This document shows positions 3,573-25,742 of a stretch of DNA of 27,910 nt, piece after piece (position 1 is the stretch's first letter; every line of letters begins with the position of its first letter). The position numbers and the translations under genes were made by a program. Source of the stretch: a virus; IMG/VR virus record IMGVR_UViG_3300040960_001553, positions 1 through 27,910 of that record, one strand, 5' to 3'. A model generated the notes under the pieces. That model made no database searches. It had not been told where the DNA came from and saw only the letters and a list, made by a program, of their open reading frames with translations.

Positions 3573-3595
3573 AAACTGCAGGTGTCTCGGCGGTT

Positions 3596-3997
3596 ATGAA
3601 GAAACCTAAGCCACATAATTCAGGTCAATGGACTGACGCTCGCAAACGTAGCTTTGCTATGTCTGCTTTGCGTGGTGCTAGGTGGCCGGTTAAGTACCAA
3701 ACAATTAAGGATGCCTACGTCAAGGATGGGGTCAATCCTGCGACGGGACGCAAGTGCAAGCTGCACAAGTGTGCCCAGTGTGGAAACCTATTCCCTCAAA
3801 AGGACATGGCCGCTGACCACATTGAACCAGTGGTTCCCATTGAAGGATTCGCTGGAGAAACTTACTTGGGTTACAACTGGAACGAACTAATCCAGCGTCT
3901 GTACTGTGAGGCTGATGGCTTTCAAGCGTTATGCGGGGATTGCCACAAGCTCAAGACGGCAGATGAAAGAACACTGAGGAAGGCTAGAAAGTCGTGA
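3596..3997 (+). CDS. HNH endonuclease
   Basis: The product is 133 residues from ATG 3596. It opens with KPHNSGQWTDARKRSF, an N-terminus I associate with a T7-type phage HNH family, which supports this start over GTG 3551. A zinc-knuckle pair C-A-Q-C (59-62) and C-G-D-C-H (113-117) brackets the HNH core: DHIEPVV (Asp74, His75) and the helix ADGFQALCGDCHKLKT. Such proteins are metal-dependent DNA-cutting enzymes; in phages they act as homing nucleases, packaging helpers or host-DNA degraders, and the sequence does not say which. It is the last gene of the left block, and its final 14 bp are shared antiparallel with the tailspike gene. Confidence 0.8.
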   Translation: MKKPKPHNSGQWTDARKRSFAMSALRGARWPVKYQTIKDAYVKDGVNPATGRKCKLHKCAQCGNLFPQKDMAADHIEPVVPIEGFAGETYLGYNWNELIQRLYCEADGFQALCGDCHKLKTADERTLRKARKS

Positions 3998-10185: not shown

Positions 10186-10349
10186 TATTGTATTACGTTA
10201 AATGCTTCGTTAGATGGAGCAACATTGTAGGCTTGGTGTCCACCTGCCCCGTCGCTTACATTGTACTGATGACGTGACACAGCAGCAGCATCGCCCCCTA
10301 ATAAAAGGGAGGTCACAAAGGCTTTGACCTTAACTATGGTTGCCGACAT
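10185..10349 (-). CDS. Small hypothetical protein, 54 residues
   Basis: This frame fills the gap between the beta-rich 84-residue protein and the tail fibre exactly: its ATG (10349-10347) shares an A with the upstream TAA, and its TAA shares an A with the fibre ATG. The product begins MSATIVKVKAFVTSLLLGGD, with a short hydrophobic strand or helix, and continues with Gly/Asn/Tyr-rich sequence (RHQYNVSDGAGGHQAYNV). I know no family. The double TAATG junction strongly argues that it is translated; a minor fibre or connector role is inferred from position. Confidence 0.6.
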   Translation of the reverse strand: MSATIVKVKAFVTSLLLGGDAAAVSRHQYNVSDGAGGHQAYNVAPSNEAFNVIQ

Positions 10350-10603
10350 TAGAGCCTAGCTGCTATAAGTGGCGTAGCTGTGGTTCCTGTTGACAGGATG
10401 TGGGTGCCTTGTACTGGGTGATAGCTGTTAGCTGCAACGGGGATAGTGACATTTGACTGTCCACCACCTGGGCTAACTACGACGTTTCCAGCCGTACCTC
10501 CCACGTAAATCCATTGAAACTTAGCATCAGTAAATACCCTATTCGTGTCGTGAGGGCTTACAGTTTTGTAAACTTCTGCTGGTGATCCTATTGTTTGTGC
10601 CAT
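10349..10603 (-). CDS. Small beta-rich virion protein (decoration or spike-base type)
   Basis: The product is 84 residues, almost all beta-strand in composition. The order 'P-H-D-x-N-R-V-F', 'IYVGGTAGNVVVSPGGGQ', 'VTIPVAANSYHPVQGTHI' and 'STGTTATPLIAARL' is a recurring small-protein pattern in phages, where the ending 'x-T-G-T-T-A-x-x-I-x-A' is typical. Relatives lie beside tail fibres or capsids and are described as spike-base or decoration proteins; which applies here is unclear. It is the first gene behind promoter P1, so it should be made in quantity. The leader has no SD but carries ATAACAAC before the start. Confidence 0.6.
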   Translation of the reverse strand: MAQTIGSPAEVYKTVSPHDTNRVFTDAKFQWIYVGGTAGNVVVSPGGGQSNVTIPVAANSYHPVQGTHILSTGTTATPLIAARL

Positions 10604-10636: not shown

Positions 10637-10665
10637 ATTATACCACATTGCCCTGTGATTGTCAA
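10637..10665 (-). promoter_or_regulatory. Consensus sigma-70 promoter P1 (fibre and lysis module)
   Basis: On the - strand, TTGACA (10665-10660), a 17-bp spacer and TATAAT (10642-10637) match the sigma-70 consensus at all 12 positions. TTTAC precedes the -35 box. The expected start is near 10630, giving a leader of about 27 nt to the ATG at 10603. The -35 box begins 9 bp after the internal virion protein gene ends. P2 and P3 are close relatives. Confidence 0.85.
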
Positions 10666-10673
10666 GTAAAAAG

Positions 10674-13600
10674 TTAGAAATCCCACTTTTCCGAAATGCT
10701 TTTTCTCTTATCCTTATCTTGTTTAGTTATTGATTTTAAATATTTGTCTGCAGCGTATGAAAAATAATTAGCCCCAGGAACGCCAAGCAACTTAGACAAA
10801 GCCGAAATATAATTATCTCTATGAGCATCCTGAAACGCAGAAGTAAAAACCATATTGTTTTGACTCAGGAACCAAGCAGCCGCATCATCGCCCACAAGTT
10901 GTGCAGTTTTGCCTTCTACCAATTGACCAACAAATGGTATGCCTCCGACAAATTGAGATACTCCATAACGTGACGCATCTCGCCAAAACTGCTTGTCCCT
11001 TTCGTTGTCTTCATCTCGAAGACCTATTACTTCTTTTAATGAATCTCCTATAAAGTCTGTTCCAGCTAGATATAGAGAAGACAACACGACAGGAAATGCG
11101 ACAAACATTATAGCTTCTTGCACCTTACCATCTTTAAGCTGAGTCCCAGAATATCCAAGATTCAACATTCTGTTCATGTCTGCAGTAAATGCAGTAAGCT
11201 GCTTTTCCAAACCTCCAGAAGTAAAAAAGAAAGGCAACTGGTCTATTCTTCCAGAGGGAAAATAAACATTAATAATCCTATCAGCCTCTTTTATCGCTAA
11301 TTCATGGTTGCCAGTTTTCCCAGCAACTTCTTTGTACTTAGCTGTCCAAGCCATAGTTGTGGAATAGGAATCCAAAGCACCATAGACTGCCCATCCAGCT
11401 TCTTTAAATTTTTTAGATACTTTTTTATAGCCAGATAAAACTTGAGAGGTAATCTCTCCAGTTGGAATAATCCTGCTCCGAAGGGATTGCTCAGACAGTT
11501 CCGCAACTTCAATGCGATTAGTATCTCTTCTAGTCGCCATTAATTTTGACGAATTCACGGCAAATTCGTGCAGCTTGTCGTAGTTGCCAAAATCAGATAA
11601 AGTGTCAAACCATGCACCAGTTTCAACATCTTTCTTAATTGCTATTAAAGGAGCAAATGTTTTAAGCCAAGATGCTATATTTAATGCGGTTAAACTTGCT
11701 GCAGCGTTTTGCCTTAAGTGAGAAGTAAGCTCTATTATTGCACTACTTGGAGAATCAAATGTACCTCTGGCAACTTTGCTTAGATATTTTTTTATCCATT
11801 GTGCGGCAACGTCACTAGATTTGTTTAATTCTTTTCGTACAGCCTCGGAATTAAAAACCGATTCGGCTCTTCTTATTGTAGAATAAGTGGCTATTACATG
11901 CTCTGTGTTAGCAACGCTTGACAAAACGTCTCCAATAAAATCTAGGTTTCTGTTTCCCCAACCTATCCTTGCCCCTGTCCTAAACTTCTGATTGTTCATC
12001 TTAAAACCAGCATATTGAGCGTGGTCGTTAAAGATGTTTGATCCTGCAGAAATGTTGCTTAACCCGGTTATAGGCAAGTACCTTTCTTCCTTGGGCATGT
12101 CTACTCCAAAGCGTTTTTTATAAATGTTATTCAGCCTTGGGTAAACATCGTCATCAAAATAATCTATTACAAAGTCGACAAGGTCTTTGTACTTTTGTGG
12201 AAGCGCTTCTTCAATTAACCTTATTTGCTCGCCCTTCAGCGCTACACCGCCAAAGTTAGTAGCAGAAAGATGCCCACGGCCACGGGCATTTTGGTTGTGC
12301 CCATATACAAACATTGCCTCATGGAGAGACATTGCTCGATTGCCAACAGTCAACAATTGGTTCGTTCCAACAGAAGAAATATCTATTTCCAGCTCTTCTA
12401 GCTTTTTTTCTAGCAATCCATTTTTGCCAGAAAACCTTTGCTGCATTAATATGCCTTCGCTAAAAGCCTCAGAAATAGAATCAAACAAAGACTCAATCTT
12501 GGACCTTTTTTTGCCAGTAAGCATAACAGACATTGTTTGGTAGGTAGCAAGCTCCGATCCATACTTAGCAATAAAACTACGAATTTGAGCAACCTCCCGA
12601 GCGTCAGCCCTTCCTTCCGTTTTCGAAAGTTCTAGCTTTATTGTTTCAGATAAAGCTTTTATCTTTCTATTTTCGTTTAATACGTCTGCTTTTCTTTTTG
12701 TAACGCCTTCTTTTTTTATTGCTTTAATGTTTTCCGAAATATCATTTATTATGTCTTCCGTTAAATCTTCTTTAAGCAACGGGATTTGAGAACGCTCAAC
12801 AATGTCATTGTCTTCATCCGTAAGCTCATAATTTTCTTGCTCGTCAATTCTTCTGTTTAAATCTTCTAGGTCTAATCGTGCCTGGTTTCTTGCGGCTTCT
12901 GAATTATCTGTTAAGCCAAGCAAATCTAAATAATTGGTTAAGCCCTCTGTGTACTCGGGTGCCCAAGGAGTTTTCTTTTTCCCCTTCTTTGCTTGCTTTA
13001 TATCTTTGATTATTTTTGTAAGCTCTTTTTCAAGATTGGCTTTTTTAACAGCAACAATTTCTTCTTGAAAACTAGTCTCAATATTTTCTAGTTTTTTATT
13101 TAAAAGATTTTCTAAAGCTTCTAGTTTGGTTTTGCTAGATATATCTGCAACCGTCATTGGCTTTAGCTTATTGCCCTTAGGAAGTTTGGCATTTAACTTT
13201 CGGTGAAGTGCTTCAACTTGACGAATAGCTTCTGTTACTGATCTACGCTTTTCGGATTCCTCCCATCTCTTGTTTCTGGCTTGTTGCCTTGCTTCTTCTT
13301 TAATTTCTTTAACTCTATCAGAATGTTTTTCCCTTAAATCGCGAATAGTAGCCCTAAGCTTAAGTCCAAGTGTATTGATTTTTTGAGTTAATCCTTCCTC
13401 TCTATTTGCGGCTTTTTCTTTTTCGGCAAAAACACGAGCATCAGCTTTAGTTCGTTCAGCTTTTATTGCGTCTTGCCTGCGAATCAATTCTTTTTGAACA
13501 CGCTTTGCAAGCCTAACATCTCCACGAATTTTTTCTCTAGTTACCGCAAGTTCTTTAGGAGACAATTTTTTTCCTTGACCAGATATATGATTAAGAAGTT

Positions 13601-15377
13601 TTGAAACAGACGCTTCCTCCCTTTGGGTCAATTTTTTTGGCGGCTTTGCCTTGCCCTCTTCTGGTTGGGCCCTTTCCAACTGAACCTCTATAGCGTCATT
13701 TATTTCCTTTAATTCCGACTGAATTTCTGCCTCTATGTTTTTGGCCTTTTGCTCTTCTGCCGCCGCTTGCTTTGCTTTGTCTCTTTCGTTCGGACCACGA
13801 ATTGGCATTTCTTTGCCCTCAAGCTCAACGCCAACGGTTTCATCCACTACGTCAAGATCAACGCCAGCTTCTACTTCGGCGGCTCTAATCCCCTCAGCCA
13901 ACAACAAAAGCTCTTCTTCTTGAACTTCTATTGGCTCTCTAGGCGGCGTAAACTCTTCAGCAATTCCCAAGCCCTCTACGGCTTTTTGGGACTCTACTAT
14001 CTTTGCGACAAGCCCTTCAGCTCCAGGACTATCCTCAATAACCTTTTCAAGAACAAGAGCCTCCTCTGGCGTCATCCCCTCGGTAAACTCCTCCATCGAT
14101 GTTGCCTCAACCATTTTCTTAATAAGGCGGGAATCTGGAGGTGTGGCCTCATCCATCATCATTGCTTTCCACGCAGATGATCCATTTAACAATCTTTGCG
14201 AAAGCACCTCAACAGATCCCACAGGCAACTCAATAAGCATTTCCGTAGCAATATCTTTAAAGCTAGGGTCTTCCCCGACAATCAAATCTGCAGCCAAAGC
14301 CCCAAGGCCAGCCGCCCCTGGCTGAATGGCAAGGGCATTAAAAGCAGCAGATCCAATTTTTCCAGCAGAAGCAAAAGCCAATGATTCAACTATAGCCTCT
14401 GGGGCAGCACGAAGCATTGCGTAGTCAAGTGCTTCTTGAAAAAACTTTTTGTCGTTTAGCTTCTCTGTTACAGCTTGTTGATTTGAAATGTCTACGCCGT
14501 TTTGCGAAAGATAACCAAAGAAATTGGCAGAAGTCGATTGAGCCATTGTTGCCAACGCTCCCGCACCAACTCCAGTTACGATTCCCCCCAAGGCAGATCC
14601 ACCAACCATTGCAACAAGTGAAGGTGAAGACGCTGTTAGTTCCTCTATGAGCAACTCCCCAAAAGTAGTTGGACTAAACAATTCAGTTAAACTACCCTCT
14701 TCGGTGCGGAATCGCTCTAGTCCTTCAGATACTGGAATGGCTAATAGATTAACTTGTTTCCGGACAAAATCTTTTATTTGTTCATCTCTCTGAGCCTCAA
14801 GCTTTGCAATTTGTTCTTCATACTTTGGCAAAGAGTATGAATAATTGTCAAACATTTCCTTAGAAGTCATTCGCTTGGGCCAAAGAAAACCAAGCAAAGA
14901 AGCCTCTCTTTGCATGTTGTACTTTTCAGCTATTTCTTGCTGCTCTTCTAACTCCCCAGCGTTCCATTTTTCAATAAAAGACTTTTCCCTGTCAGCAAGT
15001 GTTCTAAGGCCCTCTATTCTATTTTGAATTAGCAAAGCAGGAATAGAATCTGCATATTGGGCTGCACGAACCCCACCTCTTTTAAAACCATTAGACCACG
15101 CCTGCAAGCCCTTTGAGTTTAATTTTGCATAACTTCCTATTGCTTTAAGTTGTTCCTGTTGAAAATCTAAATCAAGGTTGCCTGTTCTTCCTGTTTCCCT
15201 AGAAATTACCTCATAAGAAGCACCAGAAAAATCTCCGTCAAGACCAAGCTCGTCGGCAATGATCCCAGACATAATAATTTTTTTTTCAATGTCTGGATCT
15301 AGAGTGGTAGCCAAATCAATTGCCTCTGATTCCGCTGCTTTACTTGCGAAAGGATCTACTATTTGACCTATTGGCAT
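10674..15377 (-). CDS. Giant internal virion protein (gp16-position), polyvalent-like
   Basis: The product is 1567 residues. Roughly 1-250 is helical; 250-400 contains Gly/Ala-rich membrane-like stretches (SPSLVAMVGGSALGGIVTG). About 480-960 is a very Lys/Glu/Arg-rich coiled-coil region; about 960-1567 is a folded C-terminal part with EERYLPITGLSNISAGSN and a hydrophobic segment IMFVAFPVVLSSLYLAG. In T7-like phages the protein at this place is ejected with the DNA and forms the channel through the envelope. The T7 gp16 lytic transglycosylase domain is not visible. The C-terminal part resembles large polyvalent proteins carried by some phages. The middle is markedly AT-rich compared with the capsid gene. 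The start, one nucleotide after the previous stop, has no SD. Confidence 0.7.
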   Translation of the reverse strand: MPIGQIVDPFASKAAESEAIDLATTLDPDIEKKIIMSGIIADELGLDGDFSGASYEVISRETGRTGNLDLDFQQEQLKAIGSYAKLNSKGLQAWSNGFKRGGVRAAQYADSIPALLIQNRIEGLRTLADREKSFIEKWNAGELEEQQEIAEKYNMQREASLLGFLWPKRMTSKEMFDNYSYSLPKYEEQIAKLEAQRDEQIKDFVRKQVNLLAIPVSEGLERFRTEEGSLTELFSPTTFGELLIEELTASSPSLVAMVGGSALGGIVTGVGAGALATMAQSTSANFFGYLSQNGVDISNQQAVTEKLNDKKFFQEALDYAMLRAAPEAIVESLAFASAGKIGSAAFNALAIQPGAAGLGALAADLIVGEDPSFKDIATEMLIELPVGSVEVLSQRLLNGSSAWKAMMMDEATPPDSRLIKKMVEATSMEEFTEGMTPEEALVLEKVIEDSPGAEGLVAKIVESQKAVEGLGIAEEFTPPREPIEVQEEELLLLAEGIRAAEVEAGVDLDVVDETVGVELEGKEMPIRGPNERDKAKQAAAEEQKAKNIEAEIQSELKEINDAIEVQLERAQPEEGKAKPPKKLTQREEASVSKLLNHISGQGKKLSPKELAVTREKIRGDVRLAKRVQKELIRRQDAIKAERTKADARVFAEKEKAANREEGLTQKINTLGLKLRATIRDLREKHSDRVKEIKEEARQQARNKRWEESEKRRSVTEAIRQVEALHRKLNAKLPKGNKLKPMTVADISSKTKLEALENLLNKKLENIETSFQEEIVAVKKANLEKELTKIIKDIKQAKKGKKKTPWAPEYTEGLTNYLDLLGLTDNSEAARNQARLDLEDLNRRIDEQENYELTDEDNDIVERSQIPLLKEDLTEDIINDISENIKAIKKEGVTKRKADVLNENRKIKALSETIKLELSKTEGRADAREVAQIRSFIAKYGSELATYQTMSVMLTGKKRSKIESLFDSISEAFSEGILMQQRFSGKNGLLEKKLEELEIDISSVGTNQLLTVGNRAMSLHEAMFVYGHNQNARGRGHLSATNFGGVALKGEQIRLIEEALPQKYKDLVDFVIDYFDDDVYPRLNNIYKKRFGVDMPKEERYLPITGLSNISAGSNIFNDHAQYAGFKMNNQKFRTGARIGWGNRNLDFIGDVLSSVANTEHVIATYSTIRRAESVFNSEAVRKELNKSSDVAAQWIKKYLSKVARGTFDSPSSAIIELTSHLRQNAAASLTALNIASWLKTFAPLIAIKKDVETGAWFDTLSDFGNYDKLHEFAVNSSKLMATRRDTNRIEVAELSEQSLRSRIIPTGEITSQVLSGYKKVSKKFKEAGWAVYGALDSYSTTMAWTAKYKEVAGKTGNHELAIKEADRIINVYFPSGRIDQLPFFFTSGGLEKQLTAFTADMNRMLNLGYSGTQLKDGKVQEAIMFVAFPVVLSSLYLAGTDFIGDSLKEVIGLRDEDNERDKQFWRDASRYGVSQFVGGIPFVGQLVEGKTAQLVGDDAAAWFLSQNNMVFTSAFQDAHRDNYISALSKLLGVPGANYFSYAADKYLKSITKQDKDKRKSISEKWDF

Positions 15378-15378
15378 A

Positions 15379-17103
15379 TTACAATGGCTTTTTAGCCTGT
15401 TCTTGTTTAAAGAATATTAATCGGTTTAATTGCTCTGGAATTGAATCTTTATAATGTTTACTTATTAATCCGTCATCTGGATCATAAAAAACTTCTTGTA
15501 TTTTCTTGGAAAGATCAGACGTTGTTTTAAGTTCTTCAGACTTTTTAAACTGTGACACAAAAAATTCAGAATTTATTGTTCTGTAAACTTCAAGAATTTG
15601 CCTTGGTCTTAGTAAAGATTTTGTCCAATCTTTCTCCTCGGCCACCTTTCCAATTAAATTACTAAGCGACGTTGAAACCGATTTAATCATTTTCCTTTGA
15701 AAGTCATCCAAGTAAATAACTTTATTGCTCCAATCAGTCATTTCATATACTGGTTTACCATCTGGTCCTATTGTTTCTTTGTATCCTAAAGCAGCCTCTA
15801 AAGTCGAAGCGTCATCGAGAGCGGCTCTAGCTACTAGTAATTCAGCTGCCGCAAACCTGGCATTCATAGAAGTATTTGGATCTAACACAAAGTCCTCAAC
15901 CCTTTTAATTGTTTCTCCAGAAATAACATCGAACAACCCACGATCACTGTCAACCAAATCAACTAATTCCAAAAACTCGGGATCAGCGATACCACGAGTT
16001 CCGTCGCCTAAAGAAAACGACTTACTTAAAAAGTTTTTAATTTCTGGGTCAAAAACTCCCGCCAACGCCGCATCAAGACTTTCAATGTCGCCACTTCCAA
16101 TCCCTTCCATTCTTGTTGACAAAAGCTTTATTTGGTCGTTAATACGTTGAGCGTTTCGAGTAACCAATTCTCTTTCCCTGTTGTCACGAGCTATTTTAAG
16201 GTTGCTTTTAAGGGTTTCGCTATACTTATCAAACGGTAAACTATTATAAAGTTTGTCCAAATCTTCTTTGCTTTGAACAACATCCATTTGGTTAATAAGA
16301 CCATCTTTAATTATACTCTCATCTCTGCTAACAAGTGATCTCTCTTTCCTTTTTATGGATTGAAGTAAAAGACTTTTAGTTCTTTTTCCATACTCACTTT
16401 GCTCATATATAATGTCACTTTCAACTTTTTGTTCAAGTTCTGCAAGATCTTCTAAATTTTCAGAAGACAATATTAAATAATCAAGAGATTCTTTTTCTGT
16501 TTTTAAAAGATTGTTATTATCCGCTTCTTCTTTTTGTCTAATTTTATACAAGCCTTTTTCAATTTCATTTTTTTGCTCAACTGGGCTAAATAAACTAGAA
16601 TCATAAGAAGCTTTTAGTGCATCCTCGTCTTTCTCTTCAATTGCGTTCATAGCAGCTACTGCTGCAGCCTCTCTGGCTTGTTTATAAGCAGTTGCTGTAG
16701 ATTGAGCAATAAAAGAAGACCTAGCGTTTTGAATAAAAAGATTATTATTTTGCTGAAGTTTTTCTCTGGCTGAATTGCTAACACCTGGACGCAAGTTAAG
16801 ATTGACAGTGTTGTCTGCCCATTCGTCTATAATTGCCTCGTGCTTGGTTACGTCCGTTTCCTCTGCAAGTCTTCTTTGAATCTCGGCTTTTCTTTCATTT
16901 TGAAAAACAGCAACTTCATTGGCTTCTTTAAGATCAATTAGTTGTTGCTTTTCAATTTGAGCTTTTTCAATAGCGGCTCCAGCCTCGGCTGACGCTGCTG
17001 CAATGCTTCTAAAAAATGAGTCTTGGGAGTTGATGTTTACTTGGCCCCCAACAGATGGCTTGGCCCTAACGTCCTGTGGTTTGCTTGTAGGTATCCTCGG
17101 CAT
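15379..17103 (-). CDS. Internal virion protein (gp15-position), coiled coil
   Basis: The product is 574 residues, mostly charged helix. An Ala/Glu-rich N-terminal region (FFRSIAAASAEAGAAIEKAQ) leads to long heptad-like stretches with few Gly or Pro, a more compact Asp/Leu-rich region around 330-450 and a basic end. There is no enzymatic motif. Position between a small Gln/Ala-rich virion protein and the giant 1567-residue protein matches gp15 of T7, which forms a ring of the ejected core. Sequence similarity to T7 itself is not apparent. AGGAA, 9 nt before ATG 17103, is a usable SD. The stop is one nucleotide from the next start. Confidence 0.65.
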   Translation of the reverse strand: MPRIPTSKPQDVRAKPSVGGQVNINSQDSFFRSIAAASAEAGAAIEKAQIEKQQLIDLKEANEVAVFQNERKAEIQRRLAEETDVTKHEAIIDEWADNTVNLNLRPGVSNSAREKLQQNNNLFIQNARSSFIAQSTATAYKQAREAAAVAAMNAIEEKDEDALKASYDSSLFSPVEQKNEIEKGLYKIRQKEEADNNNLLKTEKESLDYLILSSENLEDLAELEQKVESDIIYEQSEYGKRTKSLLLQSIKRKERSLVSRDESIIKDGLINQMDVVQSKEDLDKLYNSLPFDKYSETLKSNLKIARDNRERELVTRNAQRINDQIKLLSTRMEGIGSGDIESLDAALAGVFDPEIKNFLSKSFSLGDGTRGIADPEFLELVDLVDSDRGLFDVISGETIKRVEDFVLDPNTSMNARFAAAELLVARAALDDASTLEAALGYKETIGPDGKPVYEMTDWSNKVIYLDDFQRKMIKSVSTSLSNLIGKVAEEKDWTKSLLRPRQILEVYRTINSEFFVSQFKKSEELKTTSDLSKKIQEVFYDPDDGLISKHYKDSIPEQLNRLIFFKQEQAKKPL

Positions 17104-17107
17104 GGTA

Positions 17108-17599
17108 TTATGTTCCTAAGTCTGGGGCCGGTCCAGTAGATCCACTAATCGCCCTAGCCCCAAGTCTTTTTGATGTTTTATATGCTCCCATCCCAATTGA
17201 TGTCAAGCCCCCAACGGTGGAAGCAAGTTGGGCACTACGTCCCTGAAACCTCATAGCGTCAGCACCACGCCGTAGACGGGACGCTTCAGCCTGACCCTGC
17301 ATCATAACATTCCCAACTCTCTGGGCGGCCATAGCGGCCTCCTGAGCGGCTAAAACTGCAGGTGTGCCGGTGGTTGTCACGACACCTCCTGCTGCAAATC
17401 CAACCCTTTGTTCGCCAACAATCATGCGACCTTTTTGCAGTTCAATAAACGCTTGGGTTTCTGCGTCCTGCATTGCCTGCTGTGCGTCTAATTCTGCAAT
17501 CTTGGCATTGTGTTCAGCTAATGCCCTTTGCTGGCGGCCCATTGCAATTTGAGCACCGCCTTCTATGCCGCCAAATATAGCTTGTGCGAAGTCTCCCAT
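17108..17599 (-). CDS. Small internal virion protein (gp14-position)
   Basis: The product is 163 residues, rich in Ala, Gln, Gly and Arg. It begins FAQAIFGGIEGGAQIAMGRQ, continues with a long Ala/Gln helix (HNAKIAELDAQQAMQDAETQ), then 'RVGFAAGGVVTTTGTPAVL' and another Ala/Gln helix. The pattern 'N-A-x-x-A-x-x-x-A' followed by 'E-x-x-x-G-x-x-x-A-x-G-V-x-x-x-x-G' is characteristic of the gp14-like internal virion proteins of T7-type phages, which insert into the outer membrane on infection. AAAGGA, 5 nt before the start, is a good SD, and the ATG shares an A with the preceding TAA. Confidence 0.7.
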   Translation of the reverse strand: MGDFAQAIFGGIEGGAQIAMGRQQRALAEHNAKIAELDAQQAMQDAETQAFIELQKGRMIVGEQRVGFAAGGVVTTTGTPAVLAAQEAAMAAQRVGNVMMQGQAEASRLRRGADAMRFQGRSAQLASTVGGLTSIGMGAYKTSKRLGARAISGSTGPAPDLGT

Positions 17600-20391
17600 T
17601 ATTGTCCTTTAGGTAAAATTTGTGGCGACATGTACTGTATTGTCGCGGGAAGTGGTTTGGTTTGTTTGTAAAATAAAGAGAAGTAGCGAAAGTTTCCGTG
17701 CGGTAATGGCAAAATCTTTTCGCCAGTAAACAGCGGAATGGCTGTGTCCATGTTGTCCTGGGGAGTGCGGAACTGTATCTCGTAGGAGTTTTCCCCGGTC
17801 TGACCATCTTCGTAGTCATACCTTACACCGATGTCCCCACCTAATGTTCTGAAAAAACCAACACCTACATTGACTGCCCTTTTGTTTTTGTTCCTGGACA
17901 TGCCATCGCCTGCTGGTGCCTGCAACTTCATTGTCTCAATCTCTGACGGGTAAGCTACCCCGTAAATGATTGAATTGTAACTAGCGCTAAACTCTCCGTC
18001 TACGCTAAACCGATCTCCGTGTACCTGATATGGGCCAAGCACCAGTCCATCTCCTAAAACATAAACGTCATCCCTGCCACGAGCTAGTTCAAACGAAGCC
18101 CCAGACAATGCTGGACTAAAGGCGTTTGTCGTAGTTAAAGAAGTATCGCTAGCAATTGACTCAACACGCTGGGTCTTGCCACCGGCTTTGATGTAACTTC
18201 CAACAGAAAGATCAGAAGTAAAAGTGGTTGAGGTTCCCGTTACAGTTGTACCGCTAGAGCTAACAGTTCCAGTTAAGGACAAGTAAGAGCCTAAATGTTC
18301 TGCTCCCGTAACAAGGGTAAAGTCGCTGCCAAGATCAGGATCGGGATAAGTCGCTTCGCTGTCGTTTCCAAGTATAACCTTGCCAGCATCCAAAAACCAT
18401 TGGTAGTTTCTTGTGTTTTCAGAAGAACGCAAACGCATTATCTGAAACTTGTTGTCTATAATTCCAGTTATGGAGTTTTGGTAAATGGCCCAAACATTGT
18501 CTTCATCCGATCCGTAAACCGATGCAACACTTAAGAACTTATCTATTCCATTGTCATTTGGCTTGCGTTCAAACCAAGCTTGAACTTCCTCTTGCTTTTC
18601 TACAACCAAACAATCAATTTGACCATTTACGTTGGGTAACCAAAGTATTCTGTAGGGATCTTGGCTGTAAGCAATTTGAGTGTATGCTCGACCAGTAGCT
18701 CCAGTGTTTTTAGCGTTAAGCCTAGTCAAGTCTTCAGCAGCGTAACCCCTAGCTCTCCAGTCGTATGACAATTCGTACACGCGTTGTCTTTCAGGACTAA
18801 CAAAAACCACCGTGCCGCCAACCTGTCTTGGCTGTATGTACGCACTGCCAACGGAACTTTGAACTTGAATTAGAGGAGCAGAGGTAGCAGATATAGCATT
18901 GTTGTCGGCTCCACGCAAGGAGTATTCTTCTCCAGACGTTCCAATTAGCAAAGCATCTTCTCCAGCAAACCACCTAATCTTATTCTGCTCTACGCTAGAC
19001 AACGTGTAGCTTACGCCATCGCTTGCCAATACGTTAGGAACGGATGTTCCAAAGTTTTTAAAATCGTCAATTCCAGAACCCCAAATAGTTTGCTTGCGAT
19101 TGTCTGTACCACCAAACCAAATGCGTCCTTGGTAAAAGCAAACAGCAGCAGGCCATCCTTGTACATTGCTAAATGCACCCTCCGACCATAGTTTAGTAGC
19201 AGTCACTGCACCGCCTGCTGTAGAGTCAAGCGACTCAACCCAATCCGCTGTTACGCTAGTAGAGCTTGTGTATTGAGTAATTTTAAAACTCCCCTTAACT
19301 TCTATTGCGGGAACAATTAAAACAGCAGCAGAATGCCCAGATCCTCCGTTTGTTGATTGCCTAATTTCATATTGGGCTTTAGGATTAGACTCGCTGCCAG
19401 TAACAGTAAAATCTAATTTTCCTCCACCATTTCCTTGAAGTTGTTGAATCTTTTCTTCAGTTACCCAATTGTCTACACTTCTGTAAAGATAAAGTTCATC
19501 AATAAAACCGCCATTAGTAGTTAATGTCCAGTCTCCAAAAACAGGAATGGGACCACTAACCAATGGACCAGAATGCAAATCCAAAGATGCTTCTTGGGCT
19601 TCACGTTTTTCGCGTATCTCCCAGTAGCTGCCAACGTGACCTGCTTCAAATAATGCAGATGATGCAGTAACGGTTACCCCGCTTCCAACATACCCATTAA
19701 CAGCCAGAGTGGTTGTACTAGAGTTCTGTTCAATTACTGGAGGTAGGGTAAATTCAATTTCCTCTATTCGCCAATCAGTTTTTCCGTAGCGAGACAATGT
19801 TAGTGGCTGGTAATTCTGATTCACCAGATAGACTACATCGTTTACTTGTGCCCTCATTGGGTATTCTAAGTAAGATGTAAACTGGCTCATTGGCAACGGG
19901 ATTTCGTAAATAAATGTGCCCGTTGTTTCCGTCTCTGTCAAAGTGTGCCAATTGCCTACTGTAAAGGTAGCAGCAGATGTTCCACCGCCCAAAGTATTAA
20001 ATGCGTACACAACTCCACCATTGCTAACCAGTTCGCCATACCTGTATGTCGTACTTGCCTGCCAAGCCGACACATCACCTATGTCAACAGTAACTTGAGT
20101 ATTGCTAATGTCGTTTTGAGAACTGTCAAAGAAACGCATGTACGTTCCGTCAGTCTCAATAATGTAGTTTACCGACTGGCTAAACTTAAATGGCAACAAT
20201 ATGCTTCTGCTAGTCTTAGCCTCAGCCGCATACTCAAAGCCCCACATACGTTCAGCAGGTCCATACTTAAGTGGGATAAAGCCCGTGCATGTTTTAAGGG
20301 CTGAGTCGTAATCCTCAAGATCGGTACGTCCGTCAAGAAGCGGCGACCACAATCCACCATTAAATCGGTTAATCCTGGTCCACAAACTCAT
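17599..20391 (-). CDS. Tail tubular protein B (nozzle)
   Basis: The product is 930 residues from ATG 20391, which overlaps the tail tubular A stop (ATGA); an extension to 20424 is not needed. The N-terminus reads 'RINRFNGGLWSPLLDGRTDL' and then 'GFIPLKYGPAERMWGFEY', the signature of T7 gp12-like nozzle proteins ('N-F-x-x-G-x-x-S-P-x-x-x-x-R-x-D', 'P-x-x-G-x-x-x-R-x-G'). The centre has 'QGRIWFGGTDNRKQTIWGS', another family hallmark, with beta-propeller-like repeats. About 720-790 carries an inserted Ser/Thr/Gly-rich domain. The protein closes the short tail and binds fibres. Confidence 0.82.
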   Translation of the reverse strand: MSLWTRINRFNGGLWSPLLDGRTDLEDYDSALKTCTGFIPLKYGPAERMWGFEYAAEAKTSRSILLPFKFSQSVNYIIETDGTYMRFFDSSQNDISNTQVTVDIGDVSAWQASTTYRYGELVSNGGVVYAFNTLGGGTSAATFTVGNWHTLTETETTGTFIYEIPLPMSQFTSYLEYPMRAQVNDVVYLVNQNYQPLTLSRYGKTDWRIEEIEFTLPPVIEQNSSTTTLAVNGYVGSGVTVTASSALFEAGHVGSYWEIREKREAQEASLDLHSGPLVSGPIPVFGDWTLTTNGGFIDELYLYRSVDNWVTEEKIQQLQGNGGGKLDFTVTGSESNPKAQYEIRQSTNGGSGHSAAVLIVPAIEVKGSFKITQYTSSTSVTADWVESLDSTAGGAVTATKLWSEGAFSNVQGWPAAVCFYQGRIWFGGTDNRKQTIWGSGIDDFKNFGTSVPNVLASDGVSYTLSSVEQNKIRWFAGEDALLIGTSGEEYSLRGADNNAISATSAPLIQVQSSVGSAYIQPRQVGGTVVFVSPERQRVYELSYDWRARGYAAEDLTRLNAKNTGATGRAYTQIAYSQDPYRILWLPNVNGQIDCLVVEKQEEVQAWFERKPNDNGIDKFLSVASVYGSDEDNVWAIYQNSITGIIDNKFQIMRLRSSENTRNYQWFLDAGKVILGNDSEATYPDPDLGSDFTLVTGAEHLGSYLSLTGTVSSSGTTVTGTSTTFTSDLSVGSYIKAGGKTQRVESIASDTSLTTTNAFSPALSGASFELARGRDDVYVLGDGLVLGPYQVHGDRFSVDGEFSASYNSIIYGVAYPSEIETMKLQAPAGDGMSRNKNKRAVNVGVGFFRTLGGDIGVRYDYEDGQTGENSYEIQFRTPQDNMDTAIPLFTGEKILPLPHGNFRYFSLFYKQTKPLPATIQYMSPQILPKGQ

Positions 20392-20996
20392 GCGTCTTCT
20401 CCACCGTAATGGATTGAATCCCAAACAGAGGAAGCATACATGTTGTCAACCGGCCTGCGACGTTGCAGACTGTCTGTAAATTTGGCTTCCTCTACCTTTC
20501 TTTCATACAACGAAAACAATCCTTGAGACAAACCTTTATCATCTGTTATTGCCATGCAGCACGAAGCGGCTAAATGCAAAGCTATAGACTCGACCAACAA
20601 AGCATCAAATACAGATGTGTCTTCTTCGTCTCTAATGTACGTAATCTTTAAAGGAGCAGCCAAGTCCGTGTGTATGTACTGACCTTTGAGTTCGTACTCT
20701 TTGTAGTGCAAGTCGTCGAGGTCGGTGTTGCCAATGTTGACAAGCCTTAACGATTCTTGAGGAACTAAAAATCTTTTGCCCCATGTGTGCTCAGGAGCAG
20801 TTGCGTCTGCGGAAAGGCTAACATCTTTTTTAGCGCATCCCCAGGTATGCGACCTCAGCACTTCTTTTCTGCTAAAGTCATACCGAAAGCTAAGAAGCTC
20901 GGCTGTTGGGCTAGTGTCGGTAAAAGGATCGGCGTATCTTCTTTCACCCAAATGGGTTGCCGCCAAATTTACTATATCGGTTTTTGTTACTGCCAT
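20388..20996 (-). CDS. Tail tubular protein A (gatekeeper/adaptor)
   Basis: The product is 202 residues, about the size of T7 gp11. It begins TKTDIVNLAATHLGERRYAD, then 'D-T-S-P-T-A-E-L-L' and 'R-K-E-V-L-R-S-H-T-W-G-C-A': a helix ending in 'A-x-x-x-L-G', an 'S-x-x-A' turn, then 'L-R-x-H-x-W' is the fold signature of this family. The C-terminal half has 'DALLVESIALHLAASCCMAI' and a long terminal helix. The protein forms the ring between portal and nozzle. It follows the capsid gene after 82 nt containing three hairpins. The RBS is weak. Confidence 0.82.
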   Translation of the reverse strand: MAVTKTDIVNLAATHLGERRYADPFTDTSPTAELLSFRYDFSRKEVLRSHTWGCAKKDVSLSADATAPEHTWGKRFLVPQESLRLVNIGNTDLDDLHYKEYELKGQYIHTDLAAPLKITYIRDEEDTSVFDALLVESIALHLAASCCMAITDDKGLSQGLFSLYERKVEEAKFTDSLQRRRPVDNMYASSVWDSIHYGGEDA

Positions 20997-21023
20997 GCTT
21001 CTTTTATGTTAAACTCCCAGGCC

Positions 21024-21041
21024 CACCTCCCGAAGGAGGTG
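21024..21041 (-). terminator. Stable C(UUCG)G hairpin downstream of the capsid gene
   Basis: On the - strand, CACCTCC-TTCG-GGAGGTG forms a 7-bp stem closed by the very stable C(UUCG)G tetraloop. No T run follows (GGGCCTGGGAG), so it is not a standard intrinsic terminator; RNA stabilisation, processing or partial attenuation fits better. The left arm TCACCTCCTT is identical to the anti-SD end typical of 16S rRNA. Confidence 0.55.
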
Positions 21042-21052
21042 AGCTAAAGAGA

Positions 21053-21066
21053 CTAGGAAAACCTAG
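21053..21066 (-). other. Short hairpin CTAGG-N4-CCTAG after the capsid gene
   Basis: A perfect 5-bp inverted repeat with a 4-nt loop (TTTT on the - strand) lies 8 bp from the neighbouring hairpin over the capsid stop and 11 bp from the UUCG hairpin. It is the middle of three consecutive hairpins. Confidence 0.5.
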
Positions 21067-21073
21067 AATTTAA

Positions 21074-21089
21074 AGAGCCTATGGGCTCT
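21074..21089 (-). other. Hairpin spanning the capsid stop codon
   Basis: AGAGCC-CATA-GGCTCT on the - strand forms a 6-bp stem. The capsid stop codon TAG (21081-21079) lies at the loop and first base of the right arm. It could protect the 3' end of the capsid message or affect termination of translation. Confidence 0.5.
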
Positions 21090-21972
21090 GATCGCAGAGT
21101 ACCTCTACTACGCCTTCTTCTTGAATGCGAGTAGCGCCAATGTCCTGCTCACACCAAACTTGGTACGAGTAGTTCTTGGTGGGCAGTTGCTCAACGCGAG
21201 CGTCGAAAGCAGAAGTGATACCAGCAACAAGAGCGCTGCGAGTATAAGCAATCGTGCTTGCGATGTCGCCAGCGGAAACGCTAACCAACTGAGTCGGGCA
21301 AAACTCGAATCCCATGAAGTAACTAACTTCACCGTTTACGAGAGCCTTAACAGCGGCAAAGTCAGAATCGCTGACCTTATCTACGTTGTTAAGCAAGTCA
21401 TCCAACTGCTCTTGGCGGTGGACGAAGTATTTCTGCTCACCCATTGGAACTTCATTTTTACCAAGAATAGACTTGGCTTCAATGAGCTTGGCAAGGGTCA
21501 GTCCCTCAGTGGCTCCACTCAGGTTGACAACAACCTGTTGAGAAGAAGGAAGGGCAACCGAAGATTCGGAGGTCGATCCTGCTAGCTTAGCAGTGGCAGT
21601 TCCCGTAGCAGCCGCGATAACCGTGGAGTCATAAGAACGTCCAAAGAAAGCAGACGCGATTTCGACGTATGGCCCGAGGAAGTCGGCAACGCTACGATTG
21701 CGGTCAGGCATATCAATAAGATCTGCCCAACGAGTTGGGGTTGCAGTGAGTTTGCGAGTTTCGTGTACCGTATCAATGTACGCAGTATCAGAGCCGCGAG
21801 TGTAAGAGGTGCTGCCTGTAATTGCTCCAACCTGGGGCAAAAACATAGCTTCTCCACCAACCATGCTACGCTCAGCGAGCTTACCCTTTAGACGAGAAGC
21901 TCCCTGCTGGTATTGAATATGTACGTCCGAAGCAAACTTCTGTGAGAATGCATTAGGATATTGTGAGGACAT
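21079..21972 (-). CDS. Major capsid protein
   Basis: The product is 297 residues. It starts MSSQYPNAFSQKFASDVHIQ, with an N-terminal helix, 'Q-Q-G-A-S-R-L-K', then a beta-rich body with Gly/Ser/Thr loops ('LPQVGAITGSTSYTRGSDTA') and a long helix region near 115-200; it ends with the short strand QEEGVVEVLC. The size, the immediately upstream scaffold gene, its own strong promoter and the tail tubular A gene downstream identify it as the capsid subunit, probably HK97-fold of the roughly 300-residue type seen in marine podoviruses. There is no SD; the leader carries ATAACAACTAATTACATTAC before the ATG. Confidence 0.75.
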   Translation of the reverse strand: MSSQYPNAFSQKFASDVHIQYQQGASRLKGKLAERSMVGGEAMFLPQVGAITGSTSYTRGSDTAYIDTVHETRKLTATPTRWADLIDMPDRNRSVADFLGPYVEIASAFFGRSYDSTVIAAATGTATAKLAGSTSESSVALPSSQQVVVNLSGATEGLTLAKLIEAKSILGKNEVPMGEQKYFVHRQEQLDDLLNNVDKVSDSDFAAVKALVNGEVSYFMGFEFCPTQLVSVSAGDIASTIAYTRSALVAGITSAFDARVEQLPTKNYSYQVWCEQDIGATRIQEEGVVEVLCDQSP

Positions 21973-22010
21973 ATTGTAATGTAATTAGTTGTTATAGTTC
22001 AGGTTTATTT

Positions 22011-22035
22011 CCTGTTCCCAGTCAACACTGGCAGG
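22011..22035 (-). promoter_or_regulatory. Hairpin in the capsid mRNA leader
   Basis: The leader between P2 and the capsid start contains CCTG-CCAGT-GTTG-ACTGG-GAA-CAGG on the - strand, a 5-bp stem extended by 4 bp across a 3-nt bulge. It lies about 40 nt before the ATG. A 5'-end stabilising role, as found for other abundant phage messages, is possible. Confidence 0.45.
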
Positions 22036-22081
22036 GGCTTCCGACACAGGGCATAAAGCTTGTCTGATTGGAATGCCGCAT

Positions 22082-22110
22082 ATTATACACCATTTTATTT
22101 AAAATGTCAA
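22082..22110 (-). promoter_or_regulatory. Consensus sigma-70 promoter P2 (capsid)
   Basis: On the - strand, TTGACA (22110-22105), a 17-bp spacer and TATAAT (22087-22082) match the consensus fully. ATGGTG precedes the -10 box, as in P3. The start is expected near 22075, giving a leader of about 100 nt. An 11-bp perfect inverted repeat (22095-22105 with 22116-22126) encloses the -35 box. Confidence 0.88.
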
Positions 22111-22126
22111 GTAAAATTTTAAATAA

Positions 22127-23020
22127 TTACCCAAGAGCTAGTGATGACTTTTCTTCAAAAAGCTTTAACACCTTTTGGTGAGCAGCACGATCTCCGTCTC
22201 GGTATGCAGTGTAGTAAGGATTGGACGGGTTGTTTTGAATGTCATGAATCTGCTCATCAATGCTTTGAGCTGACGTTATGCTAGTATTCTCAACACCCCT
22301 AATCTTAGACCCCATCAACGTATCATACTGAGACGCTAGGCGAGATGCAAAACCAGGCATGGTCCAGAAGTCGGCAACATCCAGTCCCAAATGCTTTGCA
22401 ACTACCTGAGCCTTGTCCAAAGCTTGCTGATAGCTTTCTCCACCTCGTGGACCAAAGTCTGCTTCCAATGCTTGAACCGCCTGCTCTATGCTTTGAGTAG
22501 ACTGTTGCTGCTGATTGTTAGCGTTGTCTTCAAGGGCTTTAGCAATTTGACCATAAAGCTTGGATGCTTGGCGTTGCGAAAGCCCAGCTTCATGAAAGAT
22601 TGCATCAGTTGCTGCCTTTGCATCTGGATCTATTCCCTCTGGAGCCTGATAACCCTGTGGAGTTTCTGGCCTGCCCAAAGCTTTGTAAGCCTGATCCCAA
22701 ACCTCATCACCATCGTTGTCTGTAGGGATGGGCATCTTTTCCTTGGAAAGCATACGCTCCAAGTTTAGGTAGGACTTAGCTAGGCTGCTTACCGAATTAA
22801 ATTTATCGCCAAGGGCTTTATACTTATCAACATTTTCGCCCTCTTCCAAAGGCAATCTGTCAAATATGTTCTCCTTGAACGACAAATCATCGCCAATAAA
22901 ATCCTTCAAGTTTGTAGTAGCAACTGGCTGTGCAGGGGCGGCGGGTGCCGCCTCGACTTGTTCAGCTACAGGTGCTTCTGTTGGTTGTGCGGCTAAAGGA
23001 TTAACTGTTTCTTCGCTCAC
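22127..23020 (-). CDS. Scaffolding protein
   Basis: The product is 297 residues, starting with GTG 23020 (GTGA overlap) behind one of the best SD sites of the region (GGAGGTG, about 6 nt away). The N-terminus is an Ala/Pro/Glu-rich disordered stretch. 'KALGRPETPQGYQAPEG' at about 113-129 is the phrase typical of podovirus scaffold proteins. The C-terminal half is charged helix with Gln-rich parts (ANNQQQQSTQSIEQAV). Scaffolds direct capsid assembly and leave before DNA is packaged. Position between portal and capsid fits. Its stop is 17 bp from the -35 box of P2, so transcription of the capsid can be raised independently. Confidence 0.78.
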   Translation of the reverse strand: MSEETVNPLAAQPTEAPVAEQVEAAPAAPAQPVATTNLKDFIGDDLSFKENIFDRLPLEEGENVDKYKALGDKFNSVSSLAKSYLNLERMLSKEKMPIPTDNDGDEVWDQAYKALGRPETPQGYQAPEGIDPDAKAATDAIFHEAGLSQRQASKLYGQIAKALEDNANNQQQQSTQSIEQAVQALEADFGPRGGESYQQALDKAQVVAKHLGLDVADFWTMPGFASRLASQYDTLMGSKIRGVENTSITSAQSIDEQIHDIQNNPSNPYYTAYRDGDRAAHQKVLKLFEEKSSLALG

Positions 23021-23430
23021 AGCACACCTCCGCCATTTTCGTACCCAACCTCATACTCATGCCTGATTATGCCCTCGTAACCATGCTCATCGGCACAGTA
23101 ACCAAGCCTTTGCCTGGCATCTTCAAAGCCTCTTCTTTGGGCATCTACGCACTGTCTAGTCAAAGATGGACCACTGCGTTTCTCTCGATCATCAAGAATA
23201 GTGTACCTATACTTGTACCTAATCTTGTAATCTTCGGGATAATTATAGTTTAGCCAAGTAATGAATTCTGGATTCTTATCTCCATATGCGGTATATAAAC
23301 CAGGTGCATCGGGATAAGCTTCTTCAATGGGCATGGCTAGTCTTTCTTCAAGCGTCGGACCCTCGGGTTTAGACGCAGTTTTAGTGGCTACCTTTTTGGT
23401 AACCTTCTTTGCTGTTTTCTTTGTAGGCAT
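23017..23430 (-). CDS. Hypothetical virion-module protein with Lys/Ala/Thr-rich N-terminus
   Basis: The product is 137 residues. The first 23 residues (TKKTAKKVTKKVATKTASK in the core) resemble histone H1-like tails: repeated K-K-x and A/T/V spacers. The remainder has 'EAYPDAPGLYTAYGDKNPEF', 'YNYPEDYKIRYKYRYTILD' and a C-terminal 'RHEYEVGYENGGG', a compact aromatic/charged domain of unknown fold. It lies between a Bbp19-like gene and the scaffold, joined by TAATG upstream and GTGA downstream. DNA binding by the tail is an inference from composition. Confidence 0.55.
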   Translation of the reverse strand: MPTKKTAKKVTKKVATKTASKPEGPTLEERLAMPIEEAYPDAPGLYTAYGDKNPEFITWLNYNYPEDYKIRYKYRYTILDDREKRSGPSLTRQCVDAQRRGFEDARQRLGYCADEHGYEGIIRHEYEVGYENGGGVL

Positions 23431-23687
23431 TATACTTCGTTGATTATCCGAAATGGACCATCCACTTCAGGTCTTTGAAAGTTCTCAAGCCCCCGCATGT
23501 ACTCAATATAGTTGACGATTCGGCTTAGTAAGTGGTAGCTTCTAAGCTCGTCATTGGTTACATTCGGGTCTACGCCAAACTGATTCATTCTACAAACATC
23601 CTTAAGGTGCTCCAGAACAGTTTCGCCGTAATCACTATTAAAGCATTCTTGATATGCTTTAACTAAGTCCTTCTCTCCTTTTTCCAT
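23430..23687 (-). CDS. Bbp19-like small phage protein
   Basis: The product is 85 residues, helical and acidic. It reads 'LVKAYQECFNSDYGETVLEHLKDVCRMNQ', 'VDPNVTNDELRSYHLLSRIV' and 'NYIEYMRGLENF'. The order 'F-x-x-x-x-G-x-x-V-L-x-x-L', then Cys, then 'D-P-x-x-x-x-x-x-x-R-x-x-x-x-R-I' resembles the Bbp19 family, found beside portals and scaffolds in Bordetella-type and other podoviruses. Its role in the particle is not known. It begins 3 nt after the portal stop without an SD and shares TAATG with the next gene. Confidence 0.55.
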   Translation of the reverse strand: MEKGEKDLVKAYQECFNSDYGETVLEHLKDVCRMNQFGVDPNVTNDELRSYHLLSRIVNYIEYMRGLENFQRPEVDGPFRIINEV

Positions 23688-23690
23688 AAA

Positions 23691-25352
23691 TTAAAGACCA
23701 GCACCGCCCATTTGGGACACGGCCTGCCCAGCCATTTGCAATTGCTGCAACTGCTGAGTAAGCATTGCGATTTGCTCATCGCGTTGCTTAAGCTGATCTA
23801 TCGTAGCATCATCATTAACAATTTCGGCAGGCACCGTAGAGTTAATGGCAATTTCCTTTAGTCCACGCTCCCAGTCAAGGGATCTTGCACCAGCACCTGG
23901 AACAAACGCTTCTACGACCTGTGCGGCTTGCGCGACTCTAAGCAGACCTTGTGTGCGTTGTGCCTTAACTGCTAAAGCAATGCGGCTGTTGTATACTACG
24001 CTAAAATTGCTAATGTCTTCAAGACCCGAATCTTCAAGCAAGTCATCAAAGTCCCCAACCAAAGACATCTGGATAAACACGTTCTCAATAACTTGATTGA
24101 GGCACTCGTCTACAATGTTTTGGAAGATTGGGGTAAAGAGTTTGAGTTGCTCTTCCGCCTGCATCTGAACTTCAAACGCTGTCTTCTCAGTGGTAGCAAT
24201 TTCCTGCTGAGTAAAGAACTTAAACATCTCGTTAAAGAACGCAGAACGTATCTGCCCTTCTAGCCTGCGAATAAACCAGTCAACACTTTGAATGTTAAAT
24301 GGAACAATGTAGGGCTGAGGCACGCCATTTGGAATGTGGGGATCAAACATGATTTCCCCACCAGCACGGTCGTCCTTTCGATAAGAACTGTCCTTGGGGA
24401 TCAGCATCGGAGGACGCACCCCCTTCTCAACGGCTACGCTAATGTCCCGTATAGCACGGTTTAAGACCCGAACAGTTGGGTATGCCTGCGTACCTGGAGA
24501 ACGGCCAAAGCCTGCGTCATGCCTGCTTTTAAGTATGCGTGTAACAATGTAGGGCTGGTAGTACAGACCATCATTGTCTAGGATTGTGCTGCTGCTTTCC
24601 TTGCAAATGTAGACCGACTCGAACGGACGGTTCTCTGGTGCAGCCGGTATGTTGCCCTCGGACCCTAGCCGTGGCTTAACCATGTGAATGATTGTAAACT
24701 TCTTATTGCGAGCAGAAGGATGTTCGGCCTTCATTGCGTCCATGATAACTTCTGGAAGCTCTGCATTACCGTCTTCTATGTCTTCCTTGAAATAGGCGTA
24801 AATTTGTTCAGCAGTCTTGCCGTCCCACTCGTGAAAGACCGTGGTGGCATACCCGTCTTCATCTTCACGGAATCTAAACTTGCCAAATGGAATTTCTACA
24901 AAGTTAAACGCACGTTTCTTGGATGGCATCATAGCCAAGCAGAACGTGCCAAACATGCCTCCACTATGCACTGCCTCATGGAATGCACGATAAAAGTTGG
25001 ACTGACCAATGCGAGTGCGAATGCGATCTGACGCACCGTTATAGAACATGCGTTCGCTTTCAACAACCTCTGGGTCAAAGCTCTGTGACTCAAGCTCTAG
25101 CCATCGCTCGTTTTGTGGAGTTAGGTCTGACACAATGCCAGCACTAAACACCTCTAGGGCATCACGGAACGTAGTGTCAAATATGCGAGTGCTGTCAATC
25201 TGACCTGCGGTGCGACCACCAATCTGTCCAGACTTACGCTCCTCTCCATAAATTGCTATGTTGTTTGCGTAAGACTTCCACTTTTCCATTTCTGGAAAGT
25301 CGTTGAAGTCAGCAAGGATGGCTCTCGCCCTTGATGAATCTTCTTGAGGCAT
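23691..25352 (-). CDS. Portal (head-tail connector) protein
   Basis: The product is 553 residues, close to the size of T7 gp8 (536). It begins with helical sequence 'RARAILADFNDFPEMEKWKS', followed by 'SGQIGGRTAGQIDSTRIFD', 'LEVFSAGIVSDLTPQNERWL', 'FYRAFHEAVHSGGMFGTFCL' and 'FNFVEIPFGKFRFREDEDG', the pattern of the podovirus head-to-tail connecting protein family: D-S-T, the 'S-x-L-x-P-x-x-x-x-W' element and a beta domain with a 'H-E-W' turn. The end is Gln/Met-rich coiled coil (AMLTQQLQQLQMAGQAV). Twelve copies form the DNA entry ring. The start shares TAATG with the preceding gene. Confidence 0.85.
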   Translation of the reverse strand: MPQEDSSRARAILADFNDFPEMEKWKSYANNIAIYGEERKSGQIGGRTAGQIDSTRIFDTTFRDALEVFSAGIVSDLTPQNERWLELESQSFDPEVVESERMFYNGASDRIRTRIGQSNFYRAFHEAVHSGGMFGTFCLAMMPSKKRAFNFVEIPFGKFRFREDEDGYATTVFHEWDGKTAEQIYAYFKEDIEDGNAELPEVIMDAMKAEHPSARNKKFTIIHMVKPRLGSEGNIPAAPENRPFESVYICKESSSTILDNDGLYYQPYIVTRILKSRHDAGFGRSPGTQAYPTVRVLNRAIRDISVAVEKGVRPPMLIPKDSSYRKDDRAGGEIMFDPHIPNGVPQPYIVPFNIQSVDWFIRRLEGQIRSAFFNEMFKFFTQQEIATTEKTAFEVQMQAEEQLKLFTPIFQNIVDECLNQVIENVFIQMSLVGDFDDLLEDSGLEDISNFSVVYNSRIALAVKAQRTQGLLRVAQAAQVVEAFVPGAGARSLDWERGLKEIAINSTVPAEIVNDDATIDQLKQRDEQIAMLTQQLQQLQMAGQAVSQMGGAGL

Positions 25353-25693
25353 TATCCTAATTTATTTTTTCTTTTATCCCGCCCAGCTATAATTGTGCTG
25401 AGCAAGTCCATCTGATTGTCGCCTTCGTATTTTTTGGATTGTTCACCAGCGGCTATTACTGTAGGTGCTTGACTTATTTGAGTTGGCGTAGCTGGTGGCT
25501 TTGGCGCAGCCCCTTTCATTACCGCAGATGTAACCGCAGCAGGTCCACCGTATTGGGCTGCCGCCTTAACTATTGGAGTTGCTACTTTAACAGTGTTAGC
25601 AGCAATAGCAGCAGTTTTTACCGCAACTCCCGCTCCCTTTGCTATAGTTCCTCCTTTTAGTACACTGACAAATGCTGGAATAAATTGACCCAT
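25352..25693 (-). CDS. Ala/Val-rich hypothetical virion-module protein
   Basis: The product is 113 residues. Residues 1-65 are Ala/Val/Gly/Lys-rich (AKGAGVAVKTAAIAANTVKV) with regularly spaced lysines, giving an amphipathic or membrane-active helix; residues 66-80 are Pro-rich, and the end is charged (DKRKNKLG). No family is known to me. It is the first gene behind P3 and precedes the portal, so it is probably a head-associated protein. The leader is only about 14 nt and lacks an SD. Confidence 0.5.
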   Translation of the reverse strand: MGQFIPAFVSVLKGGTIAKGAGVAVKTAAIAANTVKVATPIVKAAAQYGGPAAVTSAVMKGAAPKPPATPTQISQAPTVIAAGEQSKKYEGDNQMDLLSTIIAGRDKRKNKLG

Positions 25694-25713
25694 AGTAATA
25701 AAAGTTGCCGAAC

Positions 25714-25742
25714 ATTATACACCATTGTACAATAATTGTCAA
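25714..25742 (-). promoter_or_regulatory. Consensus sigma-70 promoter P3 (portal and scaffold module)
   Basis: On the - strand, TTGACA (25742-25737), a 17-bp spacer and TATAAT (25719-25714) match the consensus fully, with T-rich DNA upstream that could act as an UP element. The spacer contains the palindrome ATTGTACAAT. The -35 box lies 17 bp after the small terminase gene ends. Confidence 0.85.

Follow-up and report, generated by a model that had tools for sequence, protein, structure and literature searches.

Consensus sigma-70-type promoters ahead of the portal, capsid and fibre modules of an uncultured T7-like phage group, probably read by the host RNA polymerase

The window analysed here spans an entire virus record, 27,910 bases long. 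Its minus strand carries a virion block in T7 order: terminase, portal, a gene in the scaffold position, capsid, tail tubular proteins A and B, genes in the positions of the internal proteins (163, 574 and 1567 amino acids), an 84-amino-acid protein of a tail-fibre family, and tail or spike genes. The large terminase subunit (26563..27900) is truncated by the window end; it has 520 amino acids in the relative G008. Behind it lie the portal, or head-tail adaptor (23691..25352, phrog_332), the scaffold- or protease-position gene (22127..23020, assigned from phrog_3742/458 and its position), the major capsid protein (21079..21972, phrog_3437), tail tubular protein A (20388..20996, phrog_394) and tail tubular protein B (17599..20424, phrog_376), all on the minus strand. 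The 1567-amino-acid protein (10674..15377, minus strand) occupies the position of T7 gp16 and finds no match in PHROG or Pfam; the gene in this position encodes about 2640 amino acids in the close relatives G008 and G012. The 84-amino-acid protein (10349..10603, minus strand, phrog_12296) is 87% identical in the relative G011. On the plus strand, convergent with the late region, is the distal early operon (1007..3997), with an exonuclease, a Dda-like helicase and an HNH protein. A nucleotide search of known phages with the window gave no match, and a provirus search of genome contigs for the host found no relative.

Three minus-strand sites in this block have the form TTGACA-N17-TATAAT. P3 (25714..25742) lies 5' of a 113-amino-acid open reading frame that is followed by the portal gene. 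P2 (22082..22110) lies 5' of the major capsid gene, with the scaffold-position gene upstream of it. P1 (10637..10665), which also has an extended -10 element (TGG), lies 5' of the fibre-family gene, the first gene past it, which tail genes follow. The original prediction had described these sites from the letters, and its description holds: each site agrees at 12/12 hexamer bases, each is preceded by TTTAC, P2 and P3 have AATGGTG in common, and P1 and P2 have GCATTCC in common. The sites do sit close behind the upstream stops, at measured distances of 8, 16 and 16 bases for P1, P2 and P3 (stops ending at 10674, 22127 and 25759). The hallmarks of sigma-70 recognition (a -35 TTGACA, a -10 TATAAT and a spacing of 16-18) are present at all three, with a spacing of 17. 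A search of the window at N17 allowing one mismatch returns these three alone, so that no other copy is present there, as had been said. Base composition predicts 0.0068 exact sites per window, and dinucleotide shuffles of the window gave a mean of 0.00, with 0 as the largest count. Weaker promoter-like sites occur at background level, as do terminator-like sites overall; no intrinsic terminator is listed immediately upstream of P1, P2 or P3.

A search with the capsid protein gave 37 uncultured loci. The relatives include clade A (capsid 88-100% identical), clade B (74-76%) and clade C (66-73%; G013, L164 and L159/L069). The same promoters recur in more than 30 related uncultured contigs and, in clades A and B, stand in the same places in nearly all of the capsid loci that cover them. 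The region upstream of the capsid gene was read directly in 33 loci, and the promoter is present in the clade A and B loci so read. P3 is conserved in 15 distinct promoter windows; P2 is exact in 17 of 18, and P1 in 11 of 11. Over six promoter positions, both hexamers are exact in 61 of 63 distinct windows, all gathered at a cut-off of at most one mismatch, which further-decayed promoters would escape. Mean pairwise identity is 1.00 for the -10 box in every class and 0.96-1.00 for the -35 box; for spacer positions 1-10 it is 0.43-0.84. Exceptions in clade B are TTGACT at a fourth promoter, P4, and at P2 in two records. Because the hexamers stay invariant while the spacers diverge, the hexamers must be under selection; judged from these alignments, purifying selection holds those of P1-P3 at full consensus. 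That the three sites are instead non-functional, the work of chance or of recent duplication of one promoter, is exceedingly improbable: they are alike inside one genome, but the invariance of their hexamers across many contigs, the divergence of their spacers and a probability of about 5e-8 for three or more such sites all stand against it.

In G011, the long gene is separated from P1 by an inserted 490-amino-acid gene, and P1 still lies directly 5' of the 84-amino-acid gene; P1 therefore belongs to that gene. In 80 other, mostly distant capsid loci (mostly 35-46% identical), the 300 nt preceding the capsid gene hold an exact promoter in 0 cases and a single-mismatch one in 5, which makes the trait specific to clades A and B.

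Relatives reveal perfect copies past the window: two stand about 0.8 kb beyond its right end, and the early operon has another. The two, in records that reach further, form a divergent pair, P4 facing the terminase side and E1 facing the early operon; in clade A neither has a mismatch. The pair (L028:2839-2869, with equivalents in L014, L019, L022, L029 and L030) splits the early and late arms. A start codon lies 10 nt past the -10 box of P4, and its predicted mRNA is nearly leaderless. The perfect promoter inside the early operon was seen in three genomes (G008:21306, G009:8704, G006:27907), where an operator-like repeat, GGCCTAGTCGGCC or GGCCTGGTCGGCC, comes directly after it.

The transcript leaving P2 would begin with a conserved capsid leader (21973..22075, minus strand) in which alignment and folds place a hairpin, CCAGT-GTTG-ACTGG, replaced in clade B by CCGGA-TGG-TCCGG. 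Comparison of clade A with clade B shows both partners replaced in two of its pairs (A-U to G-C, U-A to A-U), as read by eye where the alignment is one column off. An Rfam search of the window, this leader included, gave no match. The core GGGAACAGGAA of the leader is also present in a clade C leader (L039). A 10-codon open reading frame in the leader was dropped as a candidate, its ATG not being conserved. Between the capsid and tail tubular A genes lies a GC-rich hairpin (20997..21078, minus strand), in the place of the T7 terminator Tphi and with no clear T-run. This strong hairpin is found in clade A only; in clades B and C another gene follows the capsid gene directly. In clade C contigs, a tRNA gene (Gln or Thr) lies just 5' of the capsid promoter (L159:1335-1407, L069:1127-1199, L164:3859-3931).

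Few genes in the window have a recognisable Shine-Dalgarno sequence, a possible clue to the host. Ribosome-binding-site cores precede 13-19% of ATG open reading frames in most genomes of the group, against 4-10% at random and 38% in HTVC010P, and some leaders are very short. Together, these suggest that the host probably tolerates initiation without such cores.

The T7-type RNA polymerase family (PF00940) is absent from the window, from G000, G006-G009, G011 and G013, and from HTVC010P; a first search had no positive control, and the rerun recovered the T7 enzyme. Phage sigma factors (PF04542, sigma-70 region 2) are likewise absent from records of the same group, with controls found. Family-A DNA polymerase (PF00476), the one DNA polymerase family covered, is absent too, including from G008 and G011, again with controls found. 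The window is a fragment, so the absence of an RNA polymerase leans on G008 (38,351 bp) and G011 (41,841 bp). Their exact end repeats (119 bp and 91 bp) are typical of closed assemblies, and their near-complete status rests on these repeats, which resemble assembly k-mers. The check for a phage polymerase gene that had been proposed thus ends with none detected in two near-complete relatives. Many early open reading frames have no family match.

With the sites, their conservation and their placement established, and with no RNA polymerase or sigma gene detectable in the relatives, P1-P3 are very probably genuine promoters of the host housekeeping type (sigma-70 or sigma-A), belonging to a phage that encodes no RNA polymerase and relies on the host enzyme for early and late genes alike. 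The exact site ahead of the capsid gene of the cultured phage ZP6, and the hairpin retained by paired changes in the capsid leader behind P2, also favor this. The proposal of host-type promoters ahead of the portal, capsid and fibre modules accordingly stands, in that the promoters are real, of sigma-70 type and under selection. Use of the host polymerase throughout is well supported, on the assumption that the sigma factor of the host reads TTGACA/TATAAT. Against reading by the host, clade C relatives have no TATAAT at the positions of P1-P3.

A very divergent or unrecognised phage polymerase is still conceivable beside reading by the host. One might suppose that it, or an alternative sigma factor of the phage, reads an extended motif, TTTTACTTGACA...AATGGTGTATAATRTGCGGCATTCC, as the flanks of P1-P3 are more alike than sigma-70 requires. 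This is very unlikely. A perfect housekeeping consensus makes a special factor unnecessary, and neither PF00940 nor PF04542 has a match.

Under the reading by host polymerase, P1-P3 would be successive internal entry points into one long virion operon. Transcription would start at each of them and give overlapping transcripts, boosting those of the portal, capsid and fibre modules, the part played with T7 RNA polymerase by phi6.5, phi10 and phi17. Early and late genes would both be transcribed by the host enzyme, the phage having none. P1-P3 may fire late, with timing coming from a regulator, perhaps one that reads a dyad in the spacer, or from template copy number.

Timing is the more difficult matter. 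The same perfect hexamers occur at E1, at the early-operon promoter and at P1-P3. Since early and late promoters share these, lateness cannot come from sigma-70 recognition alone, and the late expression and similar strength suggested in the original prediction are conjectural. The late promoters do share additional sequence: TTTTAC before the -35 box in clade A, and AAT at spacer positions 11-13. They also contain a weak spacer dyad, ATT-N7-AAT, that is not found in the early ones. Compared with shuffles, spacer self-complementarity is high in the late P1, P2 and P3 (p 0.0055, <0.0005 and 0.0015) and not in the early P4, E1 and E2 (p 0.67, 0.10 and 0.81), the axis of the dyad having been picked after the sequences were viewed and the p values ignoring relatedness. 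Paired, symmetric changes occur in the dyad at P2 (TTTT..AAAA to TTTC..GAAA) and at P3 (ATTGA..TCAAT to ATTAA..TTAAT).

Clade C offers a different arrangement. Here, the late positions keep CTTGACA and have no TATAAT; a palindrome near TGAGAC-N3-GTCTCA stands 9-12 bases past TTGACA. G013 has it behind CTTGACA at each of the three late positions, L164 at two. In G013 its left half-site is degenerate at P3 and P2, and the P1 position was confirmed through a 1547-amino-acid gene ending at 15515. A second copy of the palindrome, without a promoter, lies about 12 bp past the stop of that gene. Clade C palindrome sites lie at L054:8, 3611 and 15779, L164:231 and 3958, L159:1435 and L069:1227; L159, L069 and L164 have an extra copy within a coding region. 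The palindrome is suggestive of a regulator shared by the late positions and specific to them.

These observations allow the late promoters to be seen as dual sites, where the hexamers are recognised by the host polymerase and a spacer dyad (for clades A and B ATT-N7-AAT, for clade C TGAGAC-N3-GTCTCA) is bound by a dedicated regulator, from phage or host, that holds the promoter off early or turns it on late. The excess self-complementarity of the late spacers, the two paired changes and the clade C palindromes favor this reading. Against it, the dyad axis was chosen post hoc among phylogenetically related sequences, weak dyads arise easily in AT-rich spacers, P1 in the window itself has a poor dyad, with 3 pairs, and the early open reading frames tested yielded no regulator gene. 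Dual sites are therefore possible but doubtful. A bolder form of the idea is that the late promoters make up a regulon, read by host polymerase and under the control of a dedicated late regulator. Its binding site would have been rewritten between clades in concert at all late promoters, being a spacer dyad with TATAAT in A and B and a palindrome in place of the -10 box in C. This we would offer only tentatively, as rather improbable.

The simpler possibility is that the promoters are constitutive from entry, with virion genes transcribed throughout infection and lateness coming only from DNA replication and translation. The same perfect hexamers at early and late promoters are what this would predict, and neither a phage RNA polymerase nor a phage sigma factor was found. 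It does not readily account for the sequence that late promoters share beyond the hexamers and that early ones do not have. We regard it as a serious candidate, if something short of an even bet.

T7-like phages without an RNA polymerase, very abundant marine groups among them, have only the host polymerase with which to order early and late expression. In this group the promoters are few, conserved, recognisable by eye and arranged as in T7, so that one can ask directly why a host promoter of consensus sequence would be late. A natural comparison is offered by the clade whose late sites, as far as seen, all lack the -10 box.

The window shares with T7 the order portal, scaffold, capsid, tail tubular A and B, internal proteins and fibre. 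P3, P2 and P1 stand at the boundaries that the T7 record gives to phi6.5 (ahead of the portal module), phi10 (ahead of the capsid) and phi17 (ahead of the fibre). The T7 promoters also come right behind the upstream gene, phi17 lying 15 bp after gene 16. The original prediction had set these promoters apart from T7, and this is correct for the polymerase: it is T7 RNA polymerase, and not the host enzyme, that reads phi6.5, phi10 and phi17, and the single-subunit phage enzyme of Autographivirales is absent from the window and its relatives (PF00940). The layout, however, is the same as in T7. T7 phi9 and phi13 have no counterpart in the window.

Other phages share parts of the strategy. By capsid, the nearest are the HTVC010P-type pelagiphages (34-36% identity; portal 24-26%); these, including HTVC010P and Skadi, have T7-like head and tail genes, early and late arms, and neither an RNA nor a DNA polymerase. 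Skadi is predicted to use host polymerases and is reported to have four sigma-70 promoters near its replication genes (PMC10504331); these reported promoters are not at virion modules. HTVC010P has one site within one mismatch, inside a gene, and none at a late-gene boundary; HTVC028P has no site within one mismatch. Alteromonas phage ZP6 (Mareflavirus) has an exact TTGACA-N17-TATAAT 15 bases past the gene upstream of its capsid gene and no annotated RNA polymerase, but its portal is distant (about 23% identical), it encodes a DNA polymerase, and its paper does not mention promoters. In T5, host sigma-70 polymerase is likewise reported to transcribe all temporal classes (PMC7472727), although T5 is larger, differs in kind and has an RNA polymerase-binding protein of its own. 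Seen beside these, the group described here is a clear variant, sharply defined and new, of the known strategy by which T7-like phages without an RNA polymerase use host promoters.
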